Of a stretch of 64,000 bases of DNA, positions 22,974 to 63,419 are shown one piece after another. Every line of letters begins with the position of its first letter. The stretch's first letter is position 1. The notes under the pieces are model-generated. The model saw only the letters and a program-made list of their open reading frames with translations, did not search any database and was not told where the DNA came from. Source of the stretch: Bacteroidetes bacterium 43-16 (GTDB taxonomy: Bacteria; Bacteroidota; Bacteroidia; Chitinophagales; Chitinophagaceae); assembly GCA_001897525.1 (NCBI GenBank), contig MKTB01000015.1, positions 248,001 through 312,000 on the forward strand. The letters run 5' to 3'. The translations under genes and the position numbers were made by a program.

Positions 22974-24389
22974 TTGGCTCGTAAAAACAAAAAGACCGCG
23001 GTAAAAGGCATAAGGTTGGAAAAATATGCAGCGGAAGGTAAGTGTATTGCCCACCTGGAAGATGGCAAGACCCTGATGGTCGAGGGTGGTATACCCGGTG
23101 ATATAGCCGAAGTTTTTGTCTTCAAAAACAAGAAAAGTTATGCAGAAGCAAAGGTATTGCGTATTGAAACGCCTGCTCCTGACCGCTTAACGCCTTTCTG
23201 TGAACATTTCGGATTATGCGGTGGCTGTAAGTGGCAGATGCTGCCTTACGAACAGCAATTAGTGTATAAACAGCAACAGGTTAAAGATCAGTTAACAAGG
23301 ATCGGGCATATTGATCTGCCCGAATTTGAACCGATTTCGGGCTCTGAGCGTACACAATTTTACCGCAACAAGCTTGAGTTCACTTTTTCTACCCAGCAAT
23401 ACCTGAGTAAAGAGGTACTGGATGCGGCAGAAGGTGCCTTTATAGAACGTAAACCGGCGCTTGGCTTCCATGCTCCCGGTATGTTTGATAAGGTGGTGGA
23501 CATTGATACCTGCTACCTGCAGGATGAACCTTCCAACAAGGTGAAGAACCTGTTGAGAAAGCTTGCTTTTGAACATGATCTGCCTTTCTATGACTTCAAG
23601 CAACAGGAAGGCTGGCTGCGCAATGTTATTGTACGTGTAGCTACTACGGGAGAGGTGATGGTCAACCTGATCGTTCACCACAATCGACCGGAGCTGTTCC
23701 TGCTTTTAGATGCACTTGATGAGCAGATCCCGGAGATCTCTTCGCTGAACTATACCATCAATCCCAAACGTAATGATACGATCTATGACCTTGAGGTAGT
23801 GTGCTATAAAGGCAAGGCTTATATTGAAGAGTACCTGGAGCATTTCAAGTTCAAGATCTCTCCTAAATCTTTTTTCCAGACCAACAGCAGGCAGGCGGAG
23901 AAGCTGTACCAGATCACCCGGGAATTTGCCGGGCTGACGGGTTCGGAGGTTTTGTATGACCTGTATTGCGGTACGGGAAGTATCGGGATTTTCTTATCTC
24001 AGCAGGCCAAGCGTGTGGTGGGTATAGAAGTGGTGGAAGATGCAATCAAAGATGCTAAGATCAATGCTGCATGGAACAACCTGGAGCATTGCGATTTCTA
24101 TGCAGGTGATGTTTCAGATATAGCTACGGACGAGTTTTTTGAAAAGCATGGCAAACCGGATGTGATCATTACCGATCCGCCAAGGGCAGGTATGCATGAA
24201 AAACTGGTGAATCAATTGCTCAAAATGCGTGCACCAAGGGTGGTCTATGTTAGTTGTAATCCTGCGACACAGGCCAGGGACCTGCAATTGCTGGATGCGG
24301 CCTATGAGGTCAAAAGAGTGCGGCCGGTAGATATGTTCCCGCATACCCATCATATTGAGAATGTAGTATTGCTGGAATTGAGGAAATAA
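22974..24389 (+). CDS. rlmD: 23S rRNA (uracil-C5)-methyltransferase RlmD-type
   Basis: A 471-residue rRNA/tRNA m5U methyltransferase. It has an N-terminal TRAM domain (about 9-65), an iron-sulfur cluster motif with C76, C82 and C85 (CEHFGLCGGCKW) plus a later Cys (DIDTCYLQ), and a C-terminal SAM-dependent methyltransferase domain with LYDLYCGTGSIGIFL, DPPRAG and the catalytic SCNPATQARDL. The TTG at 22974 is the start: an in-frame TAA lies six codons upstream (22956-22958), there is no ATG between, and the N-terminus MARKNKK fits homologues. RlmD versus the related RlmC/TrmA is judged by the TRAM domain and the cluster motif. Confidence 0.92.
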   Translation: MARKNKKTAVKGIRLEKYAAEGKCIAHLEDGKTLMVEGGIPGDIAEVFVFKNKKSYAEAKVLRIETPAPDRLTPFCEHFGLCGGCKWQMLPYEQQLVYKQQQVKDQLTRIGHIDLPEFEPISGSERTQFYRNKLEFTFSTQQYLSKEVLDAAEGAFIERKPALGFHAPGMFDKVVDIDTCYLQDEPSNKVKNLLRKLAFEHDLPFYDFKQQEGWLRNVIVRVATTGEVMVNLIVHHNRPELFLLLDALDEQIPEISSLNYTINPKRNDTIYDLEVVCYKGKAYIEEYLEHFKFKISPKSFFQTNSRQAEKLYQITREFAGLTGSEVLYDLYCGTGSIGIFLSQQAKRVVGIEVVEDAIKDAKINAAWNNLEHCDFYAGDVSDIATDEFFEKHGKPDVIITDPPRAGMHEKLVNQLLKMRAPRVVYVSCNPATQARDLQLLDAAYEVKRVRPVDMFPHTHHIENVVLLELRK

Positions 24390-24404
24390 TTCCTTTAAAC
24401 GCTA

Positions 24405-24443
24405 AAAAAGCCATCTTTCTTTATCCGGGAAAGATGGCTTTTT
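24405..24443. terminator. Bidirectional terminator between rlmD and aat
   Basis: A5-GCCATCTTTC (24405-24419) pairs with GAAAGATGGC-T5 (24429-24443). It lies between the convergent rlmD and aat genes. Confidence 0.9.
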
Positions 24444-24476
24444 CATTATAAAATTATTTGTCCAATTGATGCACCC

Positions 24477-25121
24477 TTACTTTTCCAGGCGTTCCAGTAA
24501 ATCCAGGAACGCTTGCCTGGGCAGGAGTTCTGCACCCATGCTCATCAAATGTGGGTTCTCGACCTGGCAATCGATCAGCTTATAATCATACCGGGTACAC
24601 AAATGGATCAAAGCGGCCTTGGAAGCATTAGGCACCAGGCTAAACATACTCTCTCCGCAAAATACGGCTCCCTGCTCTATCCCATACAAGCCTCCGACTA
24701 ATCGTTCTCCCTGCCATACTTCTATAGAGGAGGCATGACCTAAGGTATGCATTTGCTTATAGGCTGCCTGCATCTCCTCCACAATCCAGGTACCGTCCTG
24801 GTCGGGACGAAAAACACCGGCACAGTGTTCAATCACCTGATCAAAGGCCTGGTTGCGTGTGATCGTAAACACCTGTTTTTTCAATAGCTGCTGCATGCTT
24901 TTGGAGATTTTGATCTTATCCGGGAAGATCACGCAACGCTCCCCGGGGCAGAACCAGCAGATAGGCTCGTCTTCATTGTACCAGGGAAAGATCCCGGAAC
25001 GGTATGCTTTCAGTAAAGTTTCAGGCGCTAAATTGCCACCTACGGCCAGTAATCCCGATTCATCTGCCTGCCCGGGATCGGGGAATTGATCAAACTCTGC
25101 TGATAAAAAAAATATGGCCAT
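24477..25121 (-). CDS. aat: Leucyl/phenylalanyl-tRNA-protein transferase
   Basis: A 214-residue Aat enzyme, which moves Leu or Phe from tRNA to the N-terminus of proteins with N-terminal Lys or Arg and so marks them for ClpAP degradation. Family motifs are visible: FPDPGQADESGLLAVGGNL near the N-terminus, AYRSGIFPWYNEDEPICWFCPGERCVIF, GTWIVEEMQAAY, GHASSIEVWQGERLVGGLYG and CGESMFSLVPNASKAAL. ATG at 25121 (MAIFFLSAEFDQFP) was chosen over an upstream start at 25166 that would add 15 unlikely residues. The nearest minus-strand gene upstream is separated by a terminator. Confidence 0.95.
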   Translation of the reverse strand: MAIFFLSAEFDQFPDPGQADESGLLAVGGNLAPETLLKAYRSGIFPWYNEDEPICWFCPGERCVIFPDKIKISKSMQQLLKKQVFTITRNQAFDQVIEHCAGVFRPDQDGTWIVEEMQAAYKQMHTLGHASSIEVWQGERLVGGLYGIEQGAVFCGESMFSLVPNASKAALIHLCTRYDYKLIDCQVENPHLMSMGAELLPRQAFLDLLERLEK

Positions 25122-25169
25122 TTGCTGCTGATGCTTTGTTGCTACCCGCAAAAATACAGGAAACAAAAG

Positions 25170-25214
25170 AAGAACCGTTTACCGGGAGCATAATGCTTCC
25201 GGCAAACGGTTCTT
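25170..25214 (-). terminator. Terminator of the T9SS cargo gene
   Basis: AAGAACCGTTTACCGG (25170-25185) pairs with CCGGCAAACGGTTCTT (25199-25214), with one A/C mismatch. It is 46 bp after the stop of the minus-strand cargo gene; the following minus-strand sequence is T-rich. Confidence 0.75.
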
Positions 25215-25260
25215 AAAACACTACTCATTCAAGGTTGGCGATACCCGTCCTCGGTTGATT

Positions 25261-28200
25261 TTATTTTTTAACCAGCTTAAAGGTACTTGCAGCACCACTT
25301 TCGCTCCTGATGATAACGGTATAGATACCTTCAGGAAGTGTTGCAATATTTAAGCTGCTGTTATTGGCATCTACCTCAGCAGTCATCATCACTCTTCCGG
25401 TCACATCATATAAAGCTACAGTATGCTTAGCTGATAAACCTAAAACAGTAACTGAATTGCTTGCCGGGTTAGGATAGATACTTAAACCGGAATTTTTAAT
25501 GTTGACCATACGCACTTCTGAAATGCTGAATACGCCATCAAAATCCAGTTGTTTCAACCTGTAATAAACATTACCCGGTGTTACTTCTTTATCTGTAGCC
25601 AGGTAATCTAATTTTTCTTTAGATTGACCATTAGCTGCTTTACTTGCTTCGAAGATCACTTCTTTCCATGATTTGGCATCAAAACTTCTTTCGATAGCAA
25701 ATCCTTTATTGTTGCTTTCAAACAATGTGCTCCAGGTCAGCGTTACATTACGGTCGTTTGCCGTTGCATTAAAGCCGATCAGTGAAACCGGTAAAGGAGT
25801 AGTAGTCGTAATTGAATAAGCTACTGCAGAACTTGTTGCACCTGCTTTATCAATAATAGAATAGGTAAAGGCAAACGGAGTACCGGCAGAACCACCGCCG
25901 TTTTGTGCATAGATCACCATTTTGGCAGGATCGAAATTATCAATTCTTGCTGTAGCTGTTCCTGCAACGACTTCCTGGATACCGGTAGTACCGCCAAAGT
26001 TGTAATACAATTTAGTCCTGGTATTGATGCTATTAATCCTGAAGCTGCTGCCTGTAGAACAAGCTGCTGCTGCCGGACAATCTTCGGGATCTGTACCGCT
26101 TAATGAGCCGATCGCTGCATTGGACATTTGAATGTGTGCATAACCAACCAAAGTAGGGTATCCACTTAATGATCCGGAAGGCGGAGCATAGTTAAATGAA
26201 CTGTTGGATACACTATATGATTTCGCATCTGCGGTTGGTGTACGTTGGATACCGAAGTTAGTATTTACTTTATTCGTAGTCACGGTTCCCAGGTCTAGTA
26301 CATTTGTTGTATTGGTAGTTGAAGCCGTACCATTGTTATTGACACCGGTAGCTACCCATCCTGTTGTATTAGAACCTGCAGTCAGGGTGGAGGTGACAGC
26401 AGGAGCCGTAGTGCCTGAAGTCAGGATCAATTTATAGCCTGCACCACTTGGTATATTAGTGAACGCATAAGTACCGTCTGCATTAACGCGCATAGAGGCT
26501 ACTACTTTGTTATCTGAAGTGCTGACCACACTGGCAAAAAGGTCTGATGTAGTGGCAACACTATTACCTGAATTGGTACTGTTTTTATCGCCGCTTACCG
26601 GCTTTTCTGAATTGTTCAATATGGCATCGCCATTCGCATCATTCCACACCTGGCCGCTGATATTGGCACCGAAAGTCATAGTAGCAGTACCGTTAGCCGT
26701 ACTTGCCTGACCTGCATTATCTACAGATTTAAAAGTAATCACGACACTACCTGGTCCGTCAAAGTTAGGATCAACAGTGATCGTTTGCGTAGGCGTACCG
26801 GAAGTATTGGTAGGAACCAGGATGCCAGCCGGAGGCCATGTTGTACTGTTGTAGCTCGTTCCGTTAATCACAATAGTAGTTGTATTAGTAGGGAAAGATA
26901 CGATACGGATATTGCTGATGCTACCGCCATCATAATCAGAGCTTGCTGTTGTATTGCTAAATGTATTAGCCGGTACCGTTACCTGAGTTGTTCCGCCAGG
27001 GTTTCCTGCTGTATTCGCACCTGCACCTACTTCCGGTAAGCGCTGTATACCGAAGTTATGGCTGGTTTTATTAGCATCCAGTACTATAGACAGGATACCA
27101 TCTGCAGTAGCATCGATACCTACGTTAGCGGTAGTACCTATTTGCTCGCCTACATTGCTCCATCCGGCAGGTAAAGTCACCTGGGTAGCATAGTTCAATT
27201 TGGTATTCACCGTTAACTGAGTACTGCTGATCACTACATTGTAGTTGGCACCAGGAATATTGGTAAAGCTGTAAGCTCCGTTTGTACCCACTGTAGCTAC
27301 TGCGCGGATCACGCTGTCAGAAGACACCATGTAAGCATATAAGGTCGGTAAAGCGATCGGGTTGGTAGCAGACTGGTCGATCAGGTTATTGCTTCTTCCG
27401 TTCACGTCATTGAAGACACTACCGGTTACACTGAAACATCCGAAAGTAACATTCACCAATTGGCCATCAGCTTCCAGAGCCCAGCCCCAGGTATTCAATA
27501 CACGTATGTTACCAAAATCATCACATTGGTTATCATTCGCATCATTTTGGCCTCCTCCCCTGGTTACAGTTGGAGCTGGCGAAACATTAGCAAAGTTTCC
27601 ATCTCCGTTCCAGGCACGGGTAGGGCTGGTAAGCGAAGAAACTGTTCCTACAAATGAGTTATTGATACCTTTTCCTGTTACATTTATATTATTATTAGAA
27701 CAGGCTCCCGGAGTTACCGTTGCAGGAAGACTATCATCATCCCAGTACAACCTGTTAGACGGTGAGCTCAATGGTGCTATGGTTTGAATATACATACCAT
27801 CGGCATTCACCTCAGCATCATAAATAGGGAGGTTAAAACGACCTCTTCGGTAAGTAGCAGAAATTTTTACGGCAGTTCCCTGGGCCAGGTTATTACCTAA
27901 TCCATCTTTACCATCCCAGGTAATGCTACCCGGACCGGCAGGGCGGTTAAAAGCTTCCAGTACAAAGTCACGGGTACCGGGTGTATAGCCGGCAGCTCCG
28001 TCAATATCAAATACAATCCTTACATCACCGGCTTCAGGCATAGTATAATTAGCCGTCAGGTTACTACCCGGGCAACCGGTAATAGGTACCGCTCCAAAAG
28101 CAGGAGAGCCACTGATCTGGGCAATCGGGTATAAGGTGGCATTCGGCTGGTTTAAGAAAACCTTAAAGCCTTTTGTCAATGGGACATTGGCAGAACCAGA

Positions 28201-29079
28201 CTCTTTCGATCTACGGGATTGTGCCCAGCTAAGGTTAGCGGCAGTATCCACACCATAATTAGTAAAGGCAATATCATAAGCCAGTGGTGCCAGACCTGCC
28301 GTGGTAGATACAAAACCCAGCTTGATCAGGGTAGAATCATGAGAATAGGAGTAAAAAGCAGGTGCTGCTTTTGCCGTAGAAGTCAGGATCTCCGCAGAGT
28401 TGATAGCTAATAAACCCCAGTTCTGAGAAAATACACGGCCGGTAAATTTCTGAGTAGTACTCGCTACGGTAATGTCCCAGAATGAAGCCCTGAATATCTG
28501 GTTATTAGCAGTTGCTACAGCGGTAGCATCCGTTCCATTCCCCGTTACTTTATAAAATACCATGGAATACTCCCCGTTCATTGTAGGGGTGAAGCTTAAA
28601 GGTGTATAACCATTGCTTGTAGTGAGGATATTAGGACCATTGACAGCCTGTGTAAAGTTAGCAATGTAGCCATTTGTCGTGTTGTCAAACCGCTGCCTGG
28701 CTGCCGTCACTTCATTACCGTTCGGATCGTAGATACGCATCCATACGTTAGCGCCGTTTTCCGCACCTATCACTCCGATATTACCATATTCTCTCCACTT
28801 AAAGCCATAGTAGATCTTCTCTGTATTAAAGTTCGAAATCCGAACCCTAACCCTGTTCTCTTCAATGTTACTCAGGTAAGGGCCGGTACCCCTGCTTGCC
28901 CAAATCAATAATGCAGAATTGGTATTGGCATCATTGTTAGAAATTTCTTTCGTTCCTTCAGCGAAAGTGTTGCCTGCAGCTAATGCAAGACCACCAAAGA
29001 CTAAAGCAAGCCTTCGGAGCTTGGCGGCGAAATTTCGCCTGCCCGGATTTAATGTTACGTGTTTAAAAGTGTTGTTCAT
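25261..29079 (-). CDS. Large secreted SdrD-B-like protein with T9SS type A sorting domain
   Basis: A 1272-residue surface or secreted protein. ATG at 29079 gives an unusually long basic N-region (MNNTFKHVTLNPGRRNFAAK then LRR) before the hydrophobic core LALVFGGLALAAGNTFA and EGTK; the upstream start at 29118 would be longer still. The middle has at least two carboxypeptidase/SdrD-B-like modules (VTGSVFNDVNGRSNN..., ISGQVWNDANGDAILNN...), each ending NFGIQR(L/T)P. It also has a gliding-type beta domain (LPVSLIGFNATANDRNVTLTW) and ends with a type IX sorting domain (SIYPNPASNSVTVLG ... FKLVKK). T9SS cargo is exported to the surface and usually anchored there. Adhesion is a guess. It is preceded by a long gene-free region. 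Confidence 0.88.
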   Translation of the reverse strand: MNNTFKHVTLNPGRRNFAAKLRRLALVFGGLALAAGNTFAEGTKEISNNDANTNSALLIWASRGTGPYLSNIEENRVRVRISNFNTEKIYYGFKWREYGNIGVIGAENGANVWMRIYDPNGNEVTAARQRFDNTTNGYIANFTQAVNGPNILTTSNGYTPLSFTPTMNGEYSMVFYKVTGNGTDATAVATANNQIFRASFWDITVASTTQKFTGRVFSQNWGLLAINSAEILTSTAKAAPAFYSYSHDSTLIKLGFVSTTAGLAPLAYDIAFTNYGVDTAANLSWAQSRRSKESGSANVPLTKGFKVFLNQPNATLYPIAQISGSPAFGAVPITGCPGSNLTANYTMPEAGDVRIVFDIDGAAGYTPGTRDFVLEAFNRPAGPGSITWDGKDGLGNNLAQGTAVKISATYRRGRFNLPIYDAEVNADGMYIQTIAPLSSPSNRLYWDDDSLPATVTPGACSNNNINVTGKGINNSFVGTVSSLTSPTRAWNGDGNFANVSPAPTVTRGGGQNDANDNQCDDFGNIRVLNTWGWALEADGQLVNVTFGCFSVTGSVFNDVNGRSNNLIDQSATNPIALPTLYAYMVSSDSVIRAVATVGTNGAYSFTNIPGANYNVVISSTQLTVNTKLNYATQVTLPAGWSNVGEQIGTTANVGIDATADGILSIVLDANKTSHNFGIQRLPEVGAGANTAGNPGGTTQVTVPANTFSNTTASSDYDGGSISNIRIVSFPTNTTTIVINGTSYNSTTWPPAGILVPTNTSGTPTQTITVDPNFDGPGSVVITFKSVDNAGQASTANGTATMTFGANISGQVWNDANGDAILNNSEKPVSGDKNSTNSGNSVATTSDLFASVVSTSDNKVVASMRVNADGTYAFTNIPSGAGYKLILTSGTTAPAVTSTLTAGSNTTGWVATGVNNNGTASTTNTTNVLDLGTVTTNKVNTNFGIQRTPTADAKSYSVSNSSFNYAPPSGSLSGYPTLVGYAHIQMSNAAIGSLSGTDPEDCPAAAACSTGSSFRINSINTRTKLYYNFGGTTGIQEVVAGTATARIDNFDPAKMVIYAQNGGGSAGTPFAFTYSIIDKAGATSSAVAYSITTTTPLPVSLIGFNATANDRNVTLTWSTLFESNNKGFAIERSFDAKSWKEVIFEASKAANGQSKEKLDYLATDKEVTPGNVYYRLKQLDFDGVFSISEVRMVNIKNSGLSIYPNPASNSVTVLGLSAKHTVALYDVTGRVMMTAEVDANNSSLNIATLPEGIYTVIIRSESGAASTFKLVKK

Positions 29080-29232
29080 ACTACTTTTTTTGTTTGAAAA
29101 TATCTTAGCACTCCCCATCGTGAAGGGGGAAGCGTTTTTAATGTATTTGTGAACGTGATACTTTATTAACCGATCGAAAGCTCAATCTATACCCGGAATG
29201 TTTATAAAAGAAAGGCAGTAGACGATACCCGC

Positions 29233-29274
29233 TTTCTATTGCATCATAAGGCAATAGAAAATTGTACGTACAAT
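29233..29274. promoter_or_regulatory. Hairpin plus 14-bp palindrome upstream of the T9SS cargo gene
   Basis: A ten-bp stem TTTCTATTGC / GCAATAGAAA (29233-29242, 29251-29260) is followed at once by the perfect palindrome ATTGTACGTACAAT (29261-29274). They lie 150-200 bp upstream of the cargo start, where an operator or leader structure would be. No known regulator site is matched. Confidence 0.35.
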
Positions 29275-29372
29275 GACATTATTTAACAATAATGATCCAT
29301 GTACCGATGTCTGCAGACTCAATAATACCGGGCTTTAAAGCACACGAGGGCCTGTATTAAACCCTGAAAAAA

Positions 29373-29501
29373 TCAGGTGTCAATAAATGCCAATTTATAA
29401 GATAGAATAAGATCGCCGGAGGGCATTACCCGCATTCGGCCATGAGCAGAAATCCTTCGTCGCTGAGGACGAATGGAATGTTTTGTAAAATGTTTGTTCA
29501 T
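29373..29501 (-). pseudogene. Short reading frame resembling the N-terminus of the downstream T9SS cargo gene
   Basis: A 42-codon frame starting with ATG at 29501. Its first residues MNKHFTKHSIRPQRRRIS resemble the start of the large cargo protein (MNNTFKHVTLNPGRRNFA), and the DNA before both start codons is a similar T-rich tract on the plus strand (gttcatacta followed by T7-T9). After about 20 residues the frame loses the hydrophobic core and ends. I read it as a remnant of a duplicated paralogue rather than a working gene; a leader peptide is an alternative. Confidence 0.4.
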
Positions 29502-30011
29502 ACTATTTCTTTTTTTTTGATAAATATTTTCTCGCATTTGTGTCCACAGGACCGCATTTGCTCAAAACTATATGTTTATCAGAATTCTAATGGAATGTAA
29601 AAGCTCCGGCGATATAAATCGGAGGTGCTTAGGGGTAATTATTGCTATATGACTGCACATTACATCACACATATGTAATCATATTCACTCAAATTTGGGC
29701 ATTCAAGACTATATCCTTCGATATAAGTTCCACTAAGAAGGCTGACTCAAAAATATGTACGTTTTAGTATTTATATAGTCAAAATAAGTACTAAAATATA
29801 CTCAAATGCAAAACTATACCCTTTGATTCAAACAGCCAAAGCATTAAATATATACATTATTTTACAATATTTAATATATTAATTAACATTAACTTCAATA
29901 ATAACATGATTACTCTATGAAAAAAGTGGAGTACTGTGTGGAAAAATAAGCTTGCTATGATATACCAGCACTACTCCAATATAATTGACACAAAAAGAAC
30001 AATGATATGCC
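29502..30011. other. A/T-rich gene-free region
   Basis: About 510 bp with no plausible coding frame. It is clearly more A/T-rich than the surroundings, above all 29640-29960. It contains a weak inverted repeat near 29603-29634 (CTCCG / CGGAG) but no RNA gene I can recognise. It separates the T9SS cargo unit from the ChaN-like gene and probably holds promoters for both. Confidence 0.5.
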
Positions 30012-30019
30012 TAAATTTG
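30012..30019 (+). promoter_or_regulatory. Candidate -7 box (TAAATTTG) of the ChaN-like gene
   Basis: TAAATTTG fits TAnnTTTG and lies 33 bp before the start codon at 30053. A TTG at 29985-29987 may be the -33 element, although 27 bp between box starts is long. Confidence 0.45.
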
Positions 30020-30052
30020 CAGCTTTAAATGCTACAAAAAACTGCTGATACA

Positions 30053-30913
30053 ATGAAAGACTTACTGTTTACCTTCTTCTGTGCTACTTTTTTCGTTTTG
30101 CAAGCAAGTGCCCAGACCTCCAAAGAGCTTTATGAGATCTATGATACAAAATCGGGGAATAAAATAGACTGGGATACCTGGGTGACCAAAAACCTCGCTG
30201 AGCAGCAGATCATACTTTGGGGAGAGGAACACAATGACAGTATCGGCCATCTTCTACAAAAGGATATGCTGCAATCTTTACAAGAGCACAGCAAGAGCAC
30301 ACCGCTAGCCTTCTCTATGGAAATGTTCCAAACGGATGTGCAATTGATCATGGATGAATATCTTTCCGGCTGGATCAGTGAAAAGAATTTTAAAACCGAG
30401 AGCCGTGTCTGGAACAACTATAAAGATTATGCAGCAATGGTTAATTTTTCCAAAGAAAATAAAATCCCGGTGATCTGCGCCAATACGCCCTCACGCTATA
30501 CCAACATGGTGACCCGGGGCAATTTCAAGGCTTTGGATGTGTTACCTAAGCATACCAAAAAGGCTTATTTACCGCCTTTCCCCCTGGATACTTTAAGCGG
30601 TCGCTATGCAGAAAAATTCCTGGAAGCTATGGGTGGTCATGTGAATCCTAATATGTTCATTTACCAGTCACAAAATCTCTGGGATGCCACCATGGCGCAC
30701 AATATCTTAAAGGCTTCAAAAAAGCATCGTGTTTTTCATATAGTAGGCCGTTTCCACACGGATGAATACCAGGGAACTGCTGCACGTGTATTAAAAGGGA
30801 CAAAGAAGAAAGTAGCTACGGTATCCTGCTTCCCTGCTGCTACCTATAAAGCTGATGAATACAAAAAGCTGGCAGACTATGTGGTGCTCACAAAAGGAGC
30901 ACAGCCGGAATAA
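30053..30913 (+). CDS. ChaN-family haem-binding-like exported protein
   Basis: A 286-residue protein with a signal peptide (MKDLLFTFFCATFFVLQASA before QTSKE) and a DUF399/ChaN domain. Visible family blocks are ILWGEEHNDSIGHLLQKDML, AFSMEMFQTDVQ, IPVICANTPSRYTNMV, QNLWDATMAHNI and VFHIVGRFHTDEYQG. ChaN of Campylobacter is an iron-regulated lipoprotein that binds haem between two subunits; here the usual lipobox Cys is missing, so it may be soluble in the periplasm. The start at 30053 fits the signal peptide. It ends 6 bp from the end of the convergent DUF692 enzyme gene. A link between the two through iron is possible but only inferred. Confidence 0.85.
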   Translation: MKDLLFTFFCATFFVLQASAQTSKELYEIYDTKSGNKIDWDTWVTKNLAEQQIILWGEEHNDSIGHLLQKDMLQSLQEHSKSTPLAFSMEMFQTDVQLIMDEYLSGWISEKNFKTESRVWNNYKDYAAMVNFSKENKIPVICANTPSRYTNMVTRGNFKALDVLPKHTKKAYLPPFPLDTLSGRYAEKFLEAMGGHVNPNMFIYQSQNLWDATMAHNILKASKKHRVFHIVGRFHTDEYQGTAARVLKGTKKKVATVSCFPAATYKADEYKKLADYVVLTKGAQPE

Positions 30914-30919
30914 TTCCGC

Positions 30920-32059
30920 CTATTTCCATTTTTGTGCTATATGGATAGCCGTATCTACCATGGCAGGATGCCAGTTTTCTATATGCCAGTCGCTGCCGGC
31001 CAGGGAAGTGTGCTGCATCTTATCGATCACATCTTTATGATCCGATGCTGTTTCCAGGATATGGCTGATGATCTGCTGCTGGGCAAATAATGCCTCATCT
31101 GAAAGCGCCGCCGGGGCAAGCTGAATCTGATCTGCCCGGAAAGCGGCAATATCCCTCGGCCATTGCTGTTGCCGGTTGTACTGCTCTATGATGGTTTTCA
31201 TCGTATTGAAATCCTGCTGAAACTGTACTCTTTGGGCAGGGCTGCTCAATGCGATACCCAACTGCTCCAATACAACAAATTTCAAATTAGGGCATTGTGC
31301 TAAGGCCATTCGCAATAGTTCAAACACTGCTGCAGGCACGGCATCATCATGGGTATCTCTTCTCACTTTCATGAAAGGAGCCTGGGGATGCGACTCCCAG
31401 GAGCCACCGGAAATATGTATTTCCCGGACTTTATCCAAGGGATACAATGCCAGTAATGTGGCTATATCCAGGTTAAAATTATGTAGCTGGCAGTACAGGT
31501 TATGCAAATCGAGAATGATGAACCCGTTCACAGGTGTTAGGAGTTCATCCAGGAACCGGCCTTGTATCTTCACTTCCTCCAGGTCGTAGGCAAAGGCCAG
31601 GTTTTCCAGCCCTACCGGGCATTGAGCAGCATCGGCAATCCGGCTGATCCGGTCCCGGCCAATGGCTAAGGTACTAGGTGTATAAGGCACACTCAGGGGT
31701 GCTCCCTTGTGAAAGTCCTGGCCGGTCATAAATCCAAAATGCTCGGTAATATGATCAAATTGATATACTTTAGTCAAAGCACTCAGGCGCTTGAGCCAGG
31801 CTTGCTGAGCTTCGGAAAAGCGGCCGGAGAACAGGGAGAAGAAGACCCCGTGCCCTACCAGCCTTTCGGCATCACTATAGGCCAGCAGGAGCTCATGAAA
31901 CCAATCCGGCACCTGGTAATTACGTGCATGAAGGGCATCAAATGACCATTCCAGGCCACCTACCACACCGGCTTCAAATAAAGGTAAGGATGCCGATAAC
32001 ATATCGGCATCCAGGTTACAAGCTATGCTCGGTATTATTCCTTCAATCATTTGTTCCAT
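30920..32059 (-). CDS. DUF692/MNIO-family peptide-modifying oxidase with C-terminal extension
   Basis: A 379-residue protein. Residues 1-275 match the DUF692 TIM-barrel family of multinuclear non-heme iron oxidases (MbnB, TglH, ChrH). Candidate metal ligands and conserved blocks are H70 (VGHGVFFS), H103, E106 and H107 (DHITEHFGF), E152-N153 (GLENL), D184, H186 and N187 (ILDLHNLY), H215 (EIHISGG), D235, H237 and D238 (DTHDDAVP) and E265 (VLEQ). These enzymes rearrange Cys or Asp in ribosomal precursor peptides. Residues 276-379 are an extra helical region ending HIENWHPAMVDTAIHIAQKWK, with no match I know; it could replace the separate partner protein (MbnC or TglI type), which is absent here. 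Its ATG directly abuts the stop codon of the third precursor gene. Confidence 0.88.
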   Translation of the reverse strand: MEQMIEGIIPSIACNLDADMLSASLPLFEAGVVGGLEWSFDALHARNYQVPDWFHELLLAYSDAERLVGHGVFFSLFSGRFSEAQQAWLKRLSALTKVYQFDHITEHFGFMTGQDFHKGAPLSVPYTPSTLAIGRDRISRIADAAQCPVGLENLAFAYDLEEVKIQGRFLDELLTPVNGFIILDLHNLYCQLHNFNLDIATLLALYPLDKVREIHISGGSWESHPQAPFMKVRRDTHDDAVPAAVFELLRMALAQCPNLKFVVLEQLGIALSSPAQRVQFQQDFNTMKTIIEQYNRQQQWPRDIAAFRADQIQLAPAALSDEALFAQQQIISHILETASDHKDVIDKMQHTSLAGSDWHIENWHPAMVDTAIHIAQKWK

Positions 32060-32236
32060 TTATCCCATACCACAGGCCGGGCAATAGTCCGGGTTAGGTT
32101 TTCCAGAGTCATCAATAGTTTTTGTACCGGATTTTTTCTCCGGAACGACATCGTCTTTTTTGTTGCATGAAGTCATGCTACCGGCGATCAGCAGACCTAT
32201 GGTCATAGAGCCGATCAGTTTTTTTGAAAGTTTCAT
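32060..32236 (-). CDS. Candidate RiPP precursor 3 (C-terminal CPACGMG)
   Basis: A 58-residue peptide. ATG at 32236 gives MKLSKKLIGSMTIGLLIAGS with lipobox-like MTSC (Cys24), then a short polar linker (NKKDDVVPEKKSGTKTIDD) and the tail PNPDYCPACGMG. The TAA stop is followed directly by the ATG of the DUF692 enzyme, so the two are translationally coupled. The tail is the same as in the neighbouring precursor 2 and similar to precursor 1, which suggests the two Cys near the C-terminus are the modification site. The signal region is homologous to that of precursor 2. A plain small lipoprotein is the alternative reading. Confidence 0.8.
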   Translation of the reverse strand: MKLSKKLIGSMTIGLLIAGSMTSCNKKDDVVPEKKSGTKTIDDSGKPNPDYCPACGMG

Positions 32237-32316
32237 ATTTATGGTTTTAAAGGGGTACGCGGGCATTATTACCCTGTACCCTATAAGACGTTAAAAAAGA
32301 AACATTGCTTAGTATC

Positions 32317-32511
32317 TTAGCCCATGCCGCAAGCCGGGCAATCATCAGGATTCCTGAGTACAGGTACACTTCCGGTATCCTCCCGGCCTATCGCCGGGTG
32401 CTGTCCCTGAGTCTCAGGTTGTTGCTTCACTGGCTGCCCCGTATCACAGGAGGCTACTGCGAGGCTTAATCCTAATGCTACGCTGCTCAAAAGTTTATTA
32501 TCCAGTTTCAT
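32317..32511 (-). CDS. Candidate RiPP precursor 2 (C-terminal CPACGMG)
   Basis: A 64-residue peptide. From ATG at 32511 it reads MKLDNKLLSSVALGLSLAVA with a lipobox-like VASC (Cys22), a polar Gln/Pro/Gly linker, and the tail RNPDDCPACGMG at the very C-terminus. The pattern MKL-x2-KL-x2-S-x3-GL is shared with precursor 3. It starts 11 bp after the stop of precursor 1 and ends 80 bp before precursor 3, in the same operon. The lipobox would anchor the mature peptide to a membrane with the modified tail free; that is inference. Confidence 0.8.
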   Translation of the reverse strand: MKLDNKLLSSVALGLSLAVASCDTGQPVKQQPETQGQHPAIGREDTGSVPVLRNPDDCPACGMG

Positions 32512-32522
32512 CTTATTTTTAT

Positions 32523-32798
32523 TTAGCCCCTGCCACAAGTGATACAGGGATGTTTATCAATTACTCCTGTTGAGTCGTTTATTGCCTGTACTACAGGACT
32601 TGTTGCCGTATGCTGCGGCCGATAGCTGACACCGGGGTTTGGCTTAGGACAGTTGACCTGTAAGGTATCTTTTTGCTGATGTGTTTTCACAGGAGCTTTC
32701 TTTCCTTTTTGTGCAGCAGCTTCTGTATGCGTTGCTGCCAGGCTTATTGTGCCTAGTCCAATCAGTACGCCTTGCAGGATATTTTTTGAAATGATCAT
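32523..32798 (-). CDS. Candidate RiPP precursor 1 (C-terminal CITCGRG)
   Basis: A 91-residue peptide, first in the operon. It has a signal peptide (MIISKNILQGVLIGLGTISL, then a cleavage region TEAAA before QKGKK) without a lipobox, a basic linker, one extra Cys in VNCPKPNPGVSYRP, and the tail DKHPCITCGRG at the C-terminus. The C-x2-C-G-x-G tail is the feature shared with precursors 2 and 3, although the rest of the sequence differs. The PNP of the linker also recurs in precursor 3. Upstream is the atpDC terminator, so the operon has its own promoter, which I could not place. Confidence 0.78.
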   Translation of the reverse strand: MIISKNILQGVLIGLGTISLAATHTEAAAQKGKKAPVKTHQQKDTLQVNCPKPNPGVSYRPQHTATSPVVQAINDSTGVIDKHPCITCGRG

Positions 32799-32854
32799 AT
32801 ACCGGGTGTTTTTGTTCTTTTAAGATGCAACAAGGCCGGGTATTCCATAAGCAA

Positions 32855-32887
32855 AATCGGGAAGACCCGTTTTGGATCTTCCCGATT
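32855..32887 (-). terminator. Terminator of the atpD-atpC operon
   Basis: AATCGGGAAGA (32855-32865) pairs with TCTTCCCGATT (32877-32887), and the minus-strand transcript continues TTTTGCTT. It separates atpDC from the peptide operon. Confidence 0.82.
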
Positions 32888-32908
32888 GATTAAAATTTAA
32901 AGTCTTTT

Positions 32909-33169
32909 TTATTCAGCAGCAGTTGCTCCTTCTAAAAGCACAGATGTTTTATTGTTTAAAACCTCTACAAAACCTCCAGAGATCTGGAAATGTTCTGTTT
33001 TAGTCTGGGCTTTATCAATAATTATTTTCATTTTGCCTTCGCCCAAAGCAGCTACCATTGCAGCGTGGTTTTCCAGGATCTCGAAAGAACCTTCTACACC
33101 GGGTAATTGTACCCCATACACTTCACCGCTATAAATTGCCTTTTCCGGAGTTAATATTTCTAAATGCAT
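32909..33169 (-). CDS. atpC: F-type ATP synthase epsilon subunit, short form
   Basis: An 86-residue epsilon subunit containing only the N-terminal beta-sandwich (MHLEILTPEKAIYSGEVYGVQLPGVEGSFEIL, ISGGFVEV). The C-terminal two-helix domain that inhibits ATP hydrolysis in E. coli is missing, as is usual in Bacteroidota. It lies in the central stalk of F1. It is co-directional with atpD, and the two form a unit separate from the rest of the atp genes, an arrangement seen in this phylum. Confidence 0.95.
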   Translation of the reverse strand: MHLEILTPEKAIYSGEVYGVQLPGVEGSFEILENHAAMVAALGEGKMKIIIDKAQTKTEHFQISGGFVEVLNNKTSVLLEGATAAE

Positions 33170-33184
33170 ACCTTTAAGTTTAGC

Positions 33185-33220
33185 AATTAGCTAATTAGCA
33201 AATTCACTAATTAGCTAATT
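33185..33220. repeat. Inverted and direct A/T-rich repeats in the atpD-atpC spacer
   Basis: The 12-bp palindrome AATTAGCTAATT occurs at 33185-33196 and 33209-33220, and CAAATTCACTAATT (33199-33212) lies between. The last 14-mer also occurs twice in the frdA spacer near 46.5 kb, so this is a dispersed intergenic repeat. Confidence 0.75.
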
Positions 33221-33223
33221 AAA

Positions 33224-35128
<1,905 letters not shown>

Positions 35129-35136
35129 TAGCTTTG
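35129..35136 (+). promoter_or_regulatory. Candidate -7 box (TAGCTTTG) of the Ycf48-like gene
   Basis: TAGCTTTG fits TAnnTTTG and lies 15 bp before the start codon at 35152. No clear -33 element is visible. Confidence 0.45.
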
Positions 35137-35151
35137 TAAAAAATTATTATC

Positions 35152-36423
35152 ATGAAAAACAAATTCTTTCCCATCATCGCCGCGCTCTCCTTTATGAGCG
35201 CCGCCGCACAAGCACAATGGCAGTTACAGCATCCTTCTCCTACTGCCGGTATCGGGCATTTACAGGTCTTTGGCACCGACACACTATTTGCTTCCACTCA
35301 AAGCAGTGAAGCCTTTGTATTAAGATCTTACAATGGAGGCAGTACTATAGATTCCATAACTTTCCCTAATATGAGTATGATCAGGCAGCATTTTATCAAT
35401 GGTACAACAGGGTTTGTTACCGGTTATATACCCTTCAGTTCAGGAAGCAGTTTATTTAAAACTACTAATGGAGGCAATACCTGGCAAACCATAAACCTTA
35501 GCATTGACATAAACACACAGCACTTAAACATCCATTTTATTGACACCGCAAAAGGATTTATCAGCAAAGACAATACACTGTACCAAACCTCTGACGGGGG
35601 TGCTACCTTCATTGCAAGGGAATTGATCTCCGAACCTCATTACATTAGTAATATCCACTTCATCAATCCACAAACAGGCTTTGTGAGCCTAGTGAGAACC
35701 CAGACTGATGGTGAGCTATACAGGGACATGATCTTTAAAACGGCTGATGCAGGTGCTAGCTGGCAACAAGTCTACAGCCGGCAAACGCCCGGACAGGTCG
35801 TATTTGTCTATCCCGGCATTTCAAATATGCAGTTCATCAATAACCAAACCGGCTTTGCTGTAGCCAGCGGCGTGCCCAGCACTTTATTAAAAACGGAAAA
35901 TGGCGGACAAAGCTGGGATACCCTCCCCTTCTCTTTTGCAAACGAATTTGAAAGTATGGCTGATGTGCATTTCATTACAGAACAAACTGGCTACACAGCA
36001 GTAGGCCAGCATATTTACAAAACGGTGAATGGCGGGCAAAGCTGGGAACAGCAAACGATCAATCCTGCAGGGGATTATTTTATTTCTGACCTTACCCTGG
36101 TAAATGAAAACCTGGGCTATGCCAGTGGCAGCGGTCTGTTTAAAACAACAAACGGGGGCGGCACGGTGAGCGTAAGCACACCCAAAGTAAATGCTTTAGG
36201 CATCAGTATCTACCCTAACCCTGCTTCGGGAACACTGAATATCCTGAAACCGGCAGATCTGACCCTGGAACAGGTCAATATCATTGATGCTTCAGGAAGG
36301 GTGATGCTAAATGCTACAGGCAGCCTGGAAAAAATAAATACCCAATCCTTTTCAAAAGGCAATTATTGGCTGAACATTAGTACTCAGAAAGGAAGAGTAA
36401 GTATTCCCTTCTTAGTGCAATAA
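35152..36423 (+). CDS. Secreted Ycf48/BNR-repeat-like protein with T9SS sorting domain
   Basis: A 423-residue secreted protein with a signal peptide (MKNKFFPIIAALSFMSAAAQA before QWQLQ). It carries about six repeats of the Ycf48/sialidase-like propeller type, each with a phrase such as LFKTTNGGNTWQTI, TSDGGATFIA, KTADAGASWQQV, KTENGGQSWDTL and KTVNGGQSWEQ (Asp-box-like), and phrases like NIHFINPQTGFV between them. Residues about 345-423 are a type A T9SS sorting domain (SIYPNPASGTLNIL ... GNYWLNIS). It is likely surface-exposed or released. Propellers of this kind are common in T9SS cargo; a function cannot be named. Confidence 0.87.
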   Translation: MKNKFFPIIAALSFMSAAAQAQWQLQHPSPTAGIGHLQVFGTDTLFASTQSSEAFVLRSYNGGSTIDSITFPNMSMIRQHFINGTTGFVTGYIPFSSGSSLFKTTNGGNTWQTINLSIDINTQHLNIHFIDTAKGFISKDNTLYQTSDGGATFIARELISEPHYISNIHFINPQTGFVSLVRTQTDGELYRDMIFKTADAGASWQQVYSRQTPGQVVFVYPGISNMQFINNQTGFAVASGVPSTLLKTENGGQSWDTLPFSFANEFESMADVHFITEQTGYTAVGQHIYKTVNGGQSWEQQTINPAGDYFISDLTLVNENLGYASGSGLFKTTNGGGTVSVSTPKVNALGISIYPNPASGTLNILKPADLTLEQVNIIDASGRVMLNATGSLEKINTQSFSKGNYWLNISTQKGRVSIPFLVQ

Positions 36424-36446
36424 ACGGGCAATAATTCTATATAAAT

Positions 36447-36477
36447 AATGGCACCTTTCACATCGGAAGGTGCCATT
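36447..36477. terminator. Bidirectional terminator
   Basis: AATGGCACCTT (36447-36457) pairs with AAGGTGCCATT (36467-36477). It lies between the Ycf48-like gene and the convergent retropepsin-like gene. The flanking U-tracts are short. Confidence 0.72.
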
Positions 36478-36545
36478 GTTTGTAAAGGGATATTTGAGGT
36501 GGTAACCGGGAACCTGATCCCCATAAATCAATACTGCTTATCGAT

Positions 36546-37691
36546 TTAAAAATAGGTCTGCAGATCGAGCTTCTTCACGGTCACTCTTGTACCATCAGAT
36601 TTGGTCAGTACCAGGGTATCTTTTTGCTTACGGAGTTCTATCACCCGGCACAATTGCAGCTTGTCCAGCTTTTCTGTTTCAATATCATTAACGGCTATGA
36701 TCTGGTCGCCTACTTTAAATTGTGCCTGCAATTCAGGGATATTAAAGAGATTGATCACAATCAGTTTACCTTCTTTGCCTGCCAGTCCGAATCCCCAGGA
36801 AGATACCGGGTGGCTTGCAGGTTCCTTTTCGGTAAGCAGTAATAATTTATTGGCTTTATAGTCAAATATAGGTTGATAATGTTTCAGGAAATCTATACCC
36901 AGCAGGGCCATCTCATTGCCCTGCACCGTTGTATGTATCCCTTTAAAGATTTGCGTAGGCTGGGAGGCAAAGCTGATGTTCATAGAGTCTTCATAAAAGA
37001 CCCCCTCATTGTTGCCAAAAAGAGAGGTGGCACTAGCCCCTGTTCCTTCCAGGAAGGTTTCATCCTTGATCTTATCAAAGGTAGTCTTGCCTATAGTCAG
37101 CGCATCGCCTGCACCGGTGTCCAGCACCAGGTCTATGAGTTCTCCGCGGATATTCAATTTGGTGTAGGGCACATTGGAGAAGGCCTCTTTTTCAAATGAG
37201 ATGGCTACATCTCTGTGCTCTGTAAAAGACTGATCTGAAACGATGAGCACTTTCCTGGCGAAATCTATTTTCCACACCAGGTTATTCATGAGATTGGAAC
37301 CAAAGATACCGGCAATAGGCACGCAGCTTCGTTCATTAATCGCATCAAAATCGTGCACGGCAAAGTAGCCGTCCTTGAAGTTGATGTTTTCCAGTTTTAA
37401 AGAAGGTACCTGGACCACATCCAGTTTTTTCTTTTGCTCATTGGCATCCTCCGCCTGCAGGTCAATGGCTACATTTTTTGCTTTCTTCATATTGACCACA
37501 TCCAGGTCCAGCAAAGACATTGCCCCGGAATCAAACACAAAATTGTATTTCTTCTTTTCGATCACTACCTCTATCAGTATCTTGTTTTCATATAGGGTAA
37601 AAGGAATGGTGTACTCAAATGCCTGGCTCAAAAAGCTACAAAGCATACATCCCAGTAAAAGCAGGTATTTATATTTCCTATTCGATCGCAT
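36546..37691 (-). CDS. Retropepsin-like aspartic protease with PDZ domain
   Basis: A 381-residue exported protein. From ATG at 37691 it has a signal peptide (MRSNRKYKYLLLLGCMLCSF then LSQA); an ATG two codons upstream is also possible. Two aspartic-protease half-sites are visible in one chain: NFVFDSGAMSLLDLDV (about 53-65) and DLVLDTGAGDALTIG (about 190), as in Bacteroidota clan AA proteases, which resemble a fused retropepsin dimer. A C-terminal PDZ domain (about 300-370; FKVGDQIIAVNDIETEKLD) probably binds substrate C-termini. It should work in the periplasm. It lies downstream of the GtrII-like gene on the same strand with a 30-bp gap. Confidence 0.88.
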   Translation of the reverse strand: MRSNRKYKYLLLLGCMLCSFLSQAFEYTIPFTLYENKILIEVVIEKKKYNFVFDSGAMSLLDLDVVNMKKAKNVAIDLQAEDANEQKKKLDVVQVPSLKLENINFKDGYFAVHDFDAINERSCVPIAGIFGSNLMNNLVWKIDFARKVLIVSDQSFTEHRDVAISFEKEAFSNVPYTKLNIRGELIDLVLDTGAGDALTIGKTTFDKIKDETFLEGTGASATSLFGNNEGVFYEDSMNISFASQPTQIFKGIHTTVQGNEMALLGIDFLKHYQPIFDYKANKLLLLTEKEPASHPVSSWGFGLAGKEGKLIVINLFNIPELQAQFKVGDQIIAVNDIETEKLDKLQLCRVIELRKQKDTLVLTKSDGTRVTVKKLDLQTYF

Positions 37692-37721
37692 AAACATTTA
37701 TTTTTTGTTCTACAGATACCA

Positions 37722-39206
37722 TTAATATTTAAAGATCACCTTATAAGCCGTTCTCCCGTCAAAGTAAAGATCATATTCCGGCCGGCTCATCAGCAGGGTA
37801 AATGGCCTGCTTTCGTCATACAGTTCAGTCTTGCCATAAACAGGCTGGATGAATGCTTCGAGGTTTAACTGATCAAACCCGATATCCATATCGCGGACCA
37901 AAGCAGTAATGATCTTGTTGTGATGACGTTTTCCCTGGTAAGGTGTGCTGTCTGTATTAAATAACCGGGGGTCTCTAGTGCCCGGAACTCTTCTTACCTC
38001 ATAAAGTTCATAAGGCTGATCATTCACTATCTGTTTGAAGTCATAGACAAATTCCCGGTAAATACTTTCCCGGTAATTGTTCTTTGCCTTCAGCGCATTG
38101 CCATAACCATTCGCAAGGTTCAGGAAATACATTAAGATCAATACATTTGTTACGCCTGCAATTTTATAATTGCTCTTCATCCCATAGATTGCCAGCAAGC
38201 CGATGGCAAAACTTAATACAATGTAGTAACGTACTTTCATTTCCGGAAGTTCGGCCAGGTAAATATAAGGGCCTGCAGTTAACACAACAACCAGGAGCAG
38301 TACACCGAATACGAGCAGTCCTGTTATACCTATATTCCTTTGAGTGCGCTTGTACACAGAAAGGGCGAAGAAGAGCACACATACCGCAATAACGACCAGG
38401 TTAGCCACATCTAAAAGCCGGATGGTAAATTTCAGGTAGGCCAGAAAGTTGGCCCAGAGGCCGGGAAGAAACCCGGAAGAAAAGTGAATGCCTGTCTTTA
38501 CAGCCCCGACATTTTCCAATTCCGGAAAGGAAAATTTATAGATCAGCATACCAGCGAAGAAGAAAGCTGCTGCTATAAAAAACTGTTTGAACACTATACG
38601 TTCACGGCTGATCATCCTGTCCATCATAATGATGAGCCAGGTGATATAATAGGCGGTAAAAGATAGCTGGTAAAAGGTCAGCACTAAAAATCCGGACAGC
38701 AAAGAGGACAGTAAAAAAAGCCGTTTATTATTCAGACAGAGAAAAGGAAACACTGCCACCAATAGTGATGCGATCATAAAAGGCGCATCTACGGTGTACA
38801 CCATATTGCCATACAGCAAAGGAAACAAGCCTGTAAAAGCAGCAGTAGCCAATGTGAGGTAAGAACGTCTCACCCTGAGCAGGGCGCAGAGCATCAGGGA
38901 TAAACCGGCGAGTAATAATATGGCATATAACTGAAATAAGGGGGCTGCATCTAACATGCTCTCCGAAAAATTCCATAACCTGATCACATATTCACTGGAA
39001 ACTCTTCCTACCTCGCGATAGGCAATACCTCCATTCAACCGTCTTACGTGATCATCGGCATAATAAAAATTAGACACGATCAATGAACTATACCCGAGCA
39101 GATAAATGCCGATGAGCACAAGAAAATTGCGCAAGGTAAAGTATGCTTTTACCCCTTCATCTAATGTAAAGAAAGATACCCGTTCAGCCTGTTGTTCTGT
39201 GTTCAA
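37722..39206 (-). CDS. GtrII-like membrane glycosyltransferase (DUF/Glucos_trans_II type)
   Basis: A 494-residue integral membrane protein with 10-12 helices. After the first helix it has the loop NFYYADDHVRRLNGG, with the adjacent Asp pair typical of polyprenyl-phosphate-sugar-using (GT-C) enzymes. The block WNFSESMLDAAPLFQLYAILLL and YTVDAPFMIASLLV follow. It is similar along its length to the protein at 60.8-62.3 kb, so the two are paralogues. GtrII enzymes transfer glucose from undecaprenyl-phosphate to O-antigen outside the cell; the sugar and acceptor here are unknown. No GtrA or GtrB is next to this copy. Confidence 0.83.
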   Translation of the reverse strand: MNTEQQAERVSFFTLDEGVKAYFTLRNFLVLIGIYLLGYSSLIVSNFYYADDHVRRLNGGIAYREVGRVSSEYVIRLWNFSESMLDAAPLFQLYAILLLAGLSLMLCALLRVRRSYLTLATAAFTGLFPLLYGNMVYTVDAPFMIASLLVAVFPFLCLNNKRLFLLSSLLSGFLVLTFYQLSFTAYYITWLIIMMDRMISRERIVFKQFFIAAAFFFAGMLIYKFSFPELENVGAVKTGIHFSSGFLPGLWANFLAYLKFTIRLLDVANLVVIAVCVLFFALSVYKRTQRNIGITGLLVFGVLLLVVVLTAGPYIYLAELPEMKVRYYIVLSFAIGLLAIYGMKSNYKIAGVTNVLILMYFLNLANGYGNALKAKNNYRESIYREFVYDFKQIVNDQPYELYEVRRVPGTRDPRLFNTDSTPYQGKRHHNKIITALVRDMDIGFDQLNLEAFIQPVYGKTELYDESRPFTLLMSRPEYDLYFDGRTAYKVIFKY

Positions 39207-62308: not shown

Positions 62309-62489
62309 ATAATTTTTTATTGTTAAGGCTGAATAAAAGTTTAGATCTGGCAGTAATTGCTCTGCTACCCTTTCAATGGTACAGGCAGGCTTTTAACCAG
62401 GAAATATTAAGGACATAATGGCTATCCTTATATCGGATTGAATGTACTATGATCGCAGATCAGGAGCGCTTTGTATTTTTTAGCAAAGG

Positions 62490-63419
62490 TTACAAATTTA
62501 TTTTCCTGTCCACGACATATTTAGGTCTTTGTTTCACTTCCATATATATCCGCCCGATATACTCTCCCAATATTCCTATCCCCATCATAATAAATCCTCC
62601 AAGCAGCAATACAGATACCATAATGGAAGCGTATCCCGTGATAGAAATTCCGAAAAAAACCTTTTCTATTATAACTTTAAGAATGAGTATAAAAGATATA
62701 AAAGATAAGCCAAAGCCTAAGTAGGTCCAGATTTTTAAAGGTAAAGTTGAGAAAGATGTAATCCCTTCCAGGGCCAGGTTCCAAAGCTTCCAGCCATTGA
62801 ATTTGCTTTGACCGGCACTCCTGGCATCTCTTTTGTATTCAACGATCGCAGTCTTGAAACCAACCCAGCTAAGCAGTCCTTTCATAAATAATTGACTTTC
62901 GCTTAACTTAATCAGTTCATTAACCACTTTGCGGCTCATCAGCCTGAAATCGCCGACATTTTCTTCAATTTTTGGTTTTGAAATTTTATTATGAAAACGG
63001 TAAAAAAGCTCAGCAGACTTTTTCTTCAAAAAGCTATCACTGGACCTGTCCGCTCTTTTCCCCAAGACAACTTCATACCCTTCCTCATATTTTTTGATCA
63101 TTTCATGAACAACAGCAATAGGGTCTTGCAGATCAACATCTATAGGCACTACTAAATCTCCGGTGGCATGTTGCAATCCGGCAAACAAAGCAGCCTCTTT
63201 ACCAAAATTCCTGGAAAATGAAACTACTTTTACCTGCTCATCTCTTGAGCCCAATATTTGCAGACAGTGGAAAGATCCATCCTGACTTCCATCATCCACA
63301 AAAACAATATCAAGCGTATATCCTGTCTTTAACTCTTCCTTAAATTGCTGAATGGCATCATAAAAAATAGGAATAGTTTGTTCTTCATTGAAAACAGGCA
63401 CGACAAATGATATAAGCAT
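62490..63419 (-). CDS. GtrB-type glycosyltransferase family 2 (polyprenyl-phosphate sugar synthase)
   Basis: A 309-residue protein: GT-A domain (1-225) with [12 protein letters not shown], the nucleotide-binding [11 protein letters not shown] and the metal-binding DVDLQDP, followed by two membrane helices (about 230-255 and 265-290) and the C-terminal tail [16 protein letters not shown]. It matches GtrB/DPM1-like enzymes that make undecaprenyl-phosphate-linked glucose or another hexose on the cytoplasmic side. The GtrII-like transferase coded downstream (181-bp gap) would use its product. A GtrA flippase is not seen next to it. Confidence 0.93.

Follow-up and report, generated by a model that had tools for sequence, protein, structure and literature searches.

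Which product is encoded by three small genes whose proteins end in similar Cys-containing tails and which lead directly into a gene for an MNIO (DUF692) enzyme? In the window, i.e. the whole analysed stretch of 64,000 nucleotides, these genes lie on the minus strand and are transcribed in the order 91, 64 and 58 aa precursor, followed by the MNIO gene. We propose, with a probability of about 0.87, that they form a chryseobasin-like (DAG-RiPP) operon, in which the tails would undergo a DybH-like −4 Da chemistry and the 58- and 64-mer would be lipidated. The chryseobasin-like family has been described recently, and what the operon contributes to this known class is a further genus and a further arrangement of precursors, not new chemistry. 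The novelty is small and lies in the presence of three precursors, the first of which is without lipobox and carries a CITCGRG tail without Pro and Met.

The initial annotation had called the operon uncharacterised and knew of no product with a terminal CPACGMG. This statement is out of date: CPACGMG, the tail of ChrA, is the substrate motif of ChrH (PMC10214503), DybH, ChsH and HymH are reported to modify such tails (PMC12636315), and NCBIfam NF050125 already models these precursors.

Gene layout and neighbourhood

The three small genes with the tails CITCGRG, CPACGMG and CPACGMG, and the last stop abutting the ATG of the MNIO gene, were found on the minus strand as first annotated. The features are:

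32855..32887, minus strand: terminator-like hairpin with a 14-pair stem that follows atpC and separates the ATP synthase genes from the peptide operon
32523..32798, minus strand: first precursor, 91 aa, ORF ending in ...HPCITCGRG, tail CITCGRG, no lipobox Cys
32317..32511, minus strand: second precursor, 64 aa, ORF ending in ...DDCPACGMG, tail CPACGMG, lipobox-like VASC with Cys22
32060..32236, minus strand: third precursor, 58 aa, ORF ending in ...DYCPACGMG, tail CPACGMG, lipobox-like MTSC with Cys24, then NKKDD
30920..32059, minus strand: MNIO (PF05114), 379 aa, placed in the ChrH-like subfamily, non-Chryseobacterium clade, by profile scores, alignment, tree and predicted model
30029-30913, plus strand: ChaN-like haem-binding protein (PF04187), converging on the MNIO gene, with the stops 6 bases apart

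The gaps between the genes of the operon are 11, 80 and 0 bases in the order of transcription, the TAA of the 58-mer gene ending at 32060 and the ATG of the MNIO gene starting at 32059. In the close relative L034, a Taibaiella MAG, the stop of the 58-mer-type gene and the MNIO start overlap as TAATG. The enzyme of L034 is the best match among named records (82% identical), and the host of the operon, with a genome of 4.7 Mb, is a Taibaiella-like member of the Chitinophagaceae.

Upstream of the operon lie atpD and atpC, separated from it by the hairpin, which was identified by its consensus alone (the stretch has 6 sites of this kind, shuffles 3.1, sd 1.9). The promoter search gave nothing above background (6 in the stretch vs 4.6 in shuffles), and at Rfam gathering thresholds no RNA element was matched near the operon within window positions 29000-36000. 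In all five loci of the genus the operon lies between the ATP synthase beta gene and the ChaN-like gene, and neither cluster is represented in the inspected loci of other genera. A functional link to these neighbours was considered and rejected; since the pairing was seen only in the loci of the genus, we take it as shared gene order.

Genes for ChrI, ChrE and ChrP are absent from the neighbours scanned between 22974 and 39206, a set that includes atpC, atpD and the ChaN-like gene; the minimal Bacteroidota clusters described in PMC12636315 are likewise without them. As a candidate partner protein we considered a lipoprotein-like gene of 134-136 aa that lies by the operon in G031, G125 and G192. 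It is not counted as a part of the system, because its copy in G125 (locus L043) has no Pfam match, it bears no tail motif and it is absent from the window operon.

The MNIO enzyme and its relatives

PF05114 (MbnB_TglH_ChrH) matches the window enzyme with 108 bits (cut-off 25), and the MNIO core is present. The best NCBIfam model is NF050165 (ChrH) with 369 bits against a cut-off of 600, so that the equivalog score is not reached; BufB gives 93 bits (cut-off 310), HvfB 69 bits (cut-off 360) and ApyH 32 bits. The description of NF050165 reads "chryseobactin maturase", where the papers and NF050124 say chryseobasin, which is probably a naming slip. Among 195 genomes of the family the ChrH model has matches in 24, of which 13 are full-length (>360 bits) and one is a fragment in G162; all are under 600 bits. 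The other matches (<70 bits) look like different MNIOs by motif, L002 being the only one of them scanned. Thus, with 369 vs 600 bits and like all matches in the 195 family genomes, the window enzyme is not a ChrH equivalog. Among 395 genomes drawn from the phylum, six ChrH matches reached an E-value of 1e-40 or better. Two of them, from one genus of another family, exceed 600 bits, and both of these loci encode a ChrA-like peptide without lipobox. At L060, where the enzyme reaches 707 bits with NF050165, all three of ChrI, ChrE and ChrP are present: the locus has a ChrA over the cut-off together with PF08592 (which we take to be the former DUF1772), a ribulose-phosphate 3-epimerase and an M42 peptidase, a combination that corresponds to the chr genes as published.

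In a tree of 21 enzymes, which does not include DybH and ChsH themselves, the window enzyme and 18 others, among them three rows from Chitinophaga, are set apart from the two >600-bit Chryseobacterium-type enzymes by a 100/100 split. Nine residues (H70, H107, E152, D184, H186, H215, D235, H237 and E265), presumably metal ligands, are invariant in 21 of 21 homologues, and several of them align with TglH or 3bww. The predicted model (pLDDT 88.4) has TglH and MbnB (8hi7, 7tcr, 7fc0) as nearest solved folds and top structural matches, in agreement with the MNIO TIM-barrel fold that it shares with them. Its secondary structure suggests that the additional C-terminal helical bundle of the subfamily is present, with predicted helices at 274-297, 322-337, 341-349 and 365-378 (10-residue pLDDT means 79-98, and 72 for 301-310). 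In contrast, TglH and MbnB act on other substrates with other partners and are described as having no C-terminal bundle (PMC12636315). Judged by its sequence, the window enzyme is a member of the ChrH-like MNIO subfamily of the DybH/ChsH type; a CPxCGxG tail is found on two of the three adjacent precursors.

With chryseobasin (ChrA/ChrH/ChrI) the operon shares the tail motif and a homologous enzyme, 40-41% identical to the two Chryseobacterium-type rows, whose ChrA peptides are without lipobox as is the window 91-mer. It differs by neighbours lacking ChrI (DUF1772), epimerase and M42 peptidase and by an enzyme below the ChrH cut-off, and methylation is not expected. An S-methylated product of the chryseobasin type, for which the enzyme would also methylate with SAM as donor (+10 Da overall) like ChrH of Chryseobacterium, is very unlikely in our view. 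The subfamily and the tail are those of ChrH, and Archangium ArlAH is reported to yield both products, but the separation in the tree, the low identity and the score far under the ChrH cut-off argue against methylation, as do the reported Bacteroidota members outside Chryseobacterium (DybH, ChsH and HymH), which give −4 Da (PMC12636315).

The initial annotation had favoured a metal-binding peptide, for which we find no direct support. Such a product, binding copper or another metal in the manner of bufferins, oxazolins or methanobactin, is very unlikely in our view. The MNIO class as such, the Cys-bearing tails, the free thiol reported for the DybA product and the ChaN-like haem-binding neighbour, which converges on the operon in five of five genus members, are consistent with it. 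However, the best family of the enzyme is ChrH and not BufB (369 vs 93 bits), no BufB/HvfB-type enzyme scores over its cut-off, no bufferin model is among the precursor matches, no EGKCG repeat was seen by eye, no metal-resistance gene occurs among the scanned neighbours from 22974 to 39206, and the inspected loci of other genera do not show the ChaN-like pairing. The published DybA product, a macrocycle plus hydantoin whose function its authors call unknown, lacks the UV feature of methanobactin or bufferin heterocycles (PMC12636315), and the discussion of copper concerns bufferins and oxazolins rather than chryseobasin-like products (PMC12636315, PMC10214503).

Precursor peptides and their tails

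The 58-mer matches NF050125 (ChrA_rel_RiPP) with 60.6 bits (58.9 in the whole-genome search) and passes the cut-off of 40, while the 64-mer, which has an orthologue in L034, falls just below it with 37.7 bits (33.7 in the whole-genome search). A pattern search of the 195 family genomes for CxxCGMG followed by TRR gave 24 sites in 21 genomes, in comparison to 2 for the reversed pattern. For fifteen of the 24 sites, a full-length ChrH-type gene follows directly downstream, and these sites cover 13 of the 13 genomes that have such a gene. None of the nine remaining sites is near a ChrH-type match or has the form CPxCGMG, and in three of the nine the codon in the stop position is TGG (Trp). With 24 sites against 2 in the backward control and 15 beside the enzyme gene, the pairing of tail and enzyme is not due to chance. 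Together with the matches to NF050125 and NF050165, this adjacency bears out the first reading as an RiPP operon with an MNIO. Tails occurring mostly without a DUF692 neighbour, named at the outset as evidence to the contrary, are not what the CxxCGMG form displays in these genomes.

The tails are under purifying selection, as had been supposed from their constancy beside differing linkers. Between the window and L034, the one genome pair compared, the three tails (21 codons) differ by 6 synonymous and 0 nonsynonymous changes and the linkers by about 48 and 83 (Nei-Gojobori counts rounded to whole numbers; Fisher p 0.003, or 2e-7 on nonsynonymous sites). The 29 peptides collected end in CPACGMG (20), CPGCGMG (3), CITCGRG (3), CPPCGRG, CLACGMG and CPACSMG (1 each). 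This collection leaves out L055 and L059, taken as the L031 genome (the L055 peptide is identical), L058, taken as L034, the G162 fragment (L049) and the split-type loci L056 and L061; the identical peptides of L041 and L044 are both counted, as is the peptide of L036, which owing to its short frame was excluded from the enzyme alignment and tree. CLACGMG is the sole tail found in G149, which suggests, at the level of sequence, that the Pro of the tail is not always required in nature. In the CPACSMG precursor of Chitinophaga rhizosphaerae (L030, upstream of 5992), Ser replaces the Gly after the second Cys.

A feature that the initial annotation did not mention is the lipobox-like Cys of the 58- and 64-mer, which is absent from the 91-mer. 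By a permissive rule, which asks only for G, A, S, T or P before the Cys, it is present in 20 of 20 MNIO-proximal peptides from loci other than the two of Chryseobacterium type. Because of this Cys, the 58- and 64-mer are probably DAG-RiPPs, i.e. lipidated RiPPs. Lys at position +3 after the Cys was found in 18/20 MNIO-proximal peptides, in 0/5 upstream peptides with such a Cys and in 5/19 other predicted lipoproteins of the loci; for the upstream peptide of L043, Cys17 was taken as lipobox, with Cys24 an equal candidate, and K is missing from +3 in both cases. The surface export signal in its strict form, C-X-K-(D/E)2 (PMC5080379), occurs in L039 alone. Since the strict signal is limited to L039 and the peptides are homologous, we read surface export as a hint only.

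The 91-mer differs from the other two precursors. Its signal-like N-terminus is related to the signal of the 64- and 58-mer, but NF050125 matches it weakly (21 bits vs the cut-off of 40, residues 1-51) and did not find it in the whole-genome search. Its tail fits only CxxCGxG and departs from the published CPxCGxG at the Pro; the Met is also absent. The L034 orthologue has the same CITCGRG tail and the same signal-like start, likewise without lipobox Cys, and G125 (L043) encodes a diverged CITCGRG paralogue with two candidate lipobox Cys (17 and 24). CITCGRG is thus found in three of five genus members (window, L034 and G125), and no such peptide was found in G031 and G192. A locus of another genus has a CPPCGRG counterpart. 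Of the 7 upstream paralogues 4 have a tail with Arg, vs 0 of 22 enzyme-proximal peptides. All CGRG-tailed peptides are below the cut-off of NF050125, with 21 bits for the window, 16.9 for L034 and 27.7 for L043; the one of L047 matches NF050124 only (20.5 bits vs a cut-off of 50). As a DNA pattern in the 195 genomes, CITCGRG gave one further match, with Ser in place of Arg (G062), and 0 in the backward control. The wider CxxCGRG pattern, applied to 16 genomes, was rejected as not specific, since it gave 7 sites, of which 3 lie at the operon, vs 6 in the backward control; the four sites away from the operon therefore need no explanation. The spellings CITCGRG, CPPCGRG and CxxCGRG returned no paper in the open-licence literature, and Arg is not among the tail variants reported as tested in PMC12636315.

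The 91-mer could be a precursor copy in decay that has ceased to be modified, given its non-consensus tail, missing lipobox Cys and weak model match and its apparent absence from G031 and G192. We consider decay unlikely, because the tail is conserved with L034 in 7/7 residues while the linker is identical in only 27/59; the tail has 2 synonymous and 0 nonsynonymous changes, the linker about 23 and 49 (nonsynonymous-site p = 0.0016). The signal stretch is conserved as well (18/25), and the same seven residues terminate the diverged peptide of G125. A further possibility, which we hold tentatively and at somewhat less than even odds, is that one enzyme serves three substrates and places a like ring both on two membrane-anchored peptides and on a third that is freely secreted. 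The latter would carry a new ring variant, Cys-Ile-Thr-Cys-Gly-Arg-Gly, with Arg for Met and the turn-forming Pro lost. If so, the anchored and the released forms would serve different targets.

Proposed maturation and related loci

DybH, from Dyadobacter, forms a macrocycle and a hydantoin (−4 Da) without a partner protein, and the DybA product is a triacylated lipoprotein with a thioether macrocycle and a hydantoin in which one free thiol remains (PMC12636315, a 2025 preprint). Triacylation of DybA occurs via its lipobox, and an acylated N-terminal Cys is reported in E. coli for DybA and NedA (PMC12636315). ChsH from Chitinophaga sancti and HymH from Hymenobacter give the same −4 Da shift, the tail of HymA being CPGCGLG; the 7-aa tail alone on GFP is sufficient for modification, and CPPCGMG and CPAACGMG are tolerated (PMC12636315). 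The window operon resembles DybA/DybH and ChsA/ChsH in its Bacteroidota host, the precursor directly upstream of a stand-alone MNIO, the C-terminal helices, the lipobox and the lack of a partner, and it shares the CPACGMG tail stated for DybA (PMC12636315). It differs from them by three precursors instead of the minimal one, one of which is without lipobox and ends in CITCGRG. The main text of PMC12636315 mentions neither Taibaiella nor "multiple precursor".

By analogy, a chryseobasin-like maturation would begin in the cytoplasm, where the MNIO, without a partner, would use O2 and a multi-iron site to oxidise the C-terminal Cys-x-x-Cys-Gly-x-Gly by four electrons (−4 Da). The two Cys would be joined in a thioether (thioaminal) macrocycle and the backbone after the second Cys converted to a hydantoin, leaving one thiol free. 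The 58- and 64-mer would then enter the lipoprotein pathway (Lgt, LspA, Lnt), so that the ring would land on a lipid-anchored envelope peptide, and the 91-mer, having no lipobox Cys, might be released by signal peptidase I. The four-electron oxidation, ring, hydantoin and lipidation are carried over from the characterised homologues; we infer that CITCGRG, too, is modified and that no methyl group is added, as well as where the product finally resides and how the 91-mer is released. As to the role of the product, we offer an envelope or extracellular one and nothing beyond. Anchored and apparently secreted precursors in one operon, with a conserved Arg tail upstream, offer a natural way to ask which part of the product is important and how far the enzyme is tolerant beyond the CPxCGxG motif.

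Other MNIO loci were noted in passing. In G162, a ChrH-type gene fragment (L049, contig C19, near 147611-147880) shares its gene order with the intact G085, and no peptide tail was found at this locus. The genome of the window has a second MNIO locus outside the window, L002 (G000 contig C7, around 62438-62968). Its MNIO (L002:1486-2376, minus strand) has BufB as best NCBIfam match (158 bits, under the cut-off of 310), and a candidate precursor of 71 aa (L002:2466-2681, minus strand) has two CP[ET]CRSGFTG repeats; an ORF of 241 aa without NCBIfam match may be a partner. Similar CPxC[RL]SG peptides lie beside MNIO-like genes in G125 (L028), G101 (L026) and G001 (L027), in the latter two with a leader ending in VKGG, and L025 and L019 have CPGCHSG and CQACLSG. 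A literature search for the CPxC[RL]SG motif returned nothing relevant; the adjamnio-7 family, which also has CxxC (PMC12452194), may be related to these peptides. The locus L056 of G236 (L056:123-371 and 401-1279) resembles the published MelH/MelHc arrangement: its ChrH-like enzyme has 292 aa and is followed by a small separate ORF, and the ORF upstream of this enzyme ends in TGACGMG, i.e. the tail minus its first Cys.
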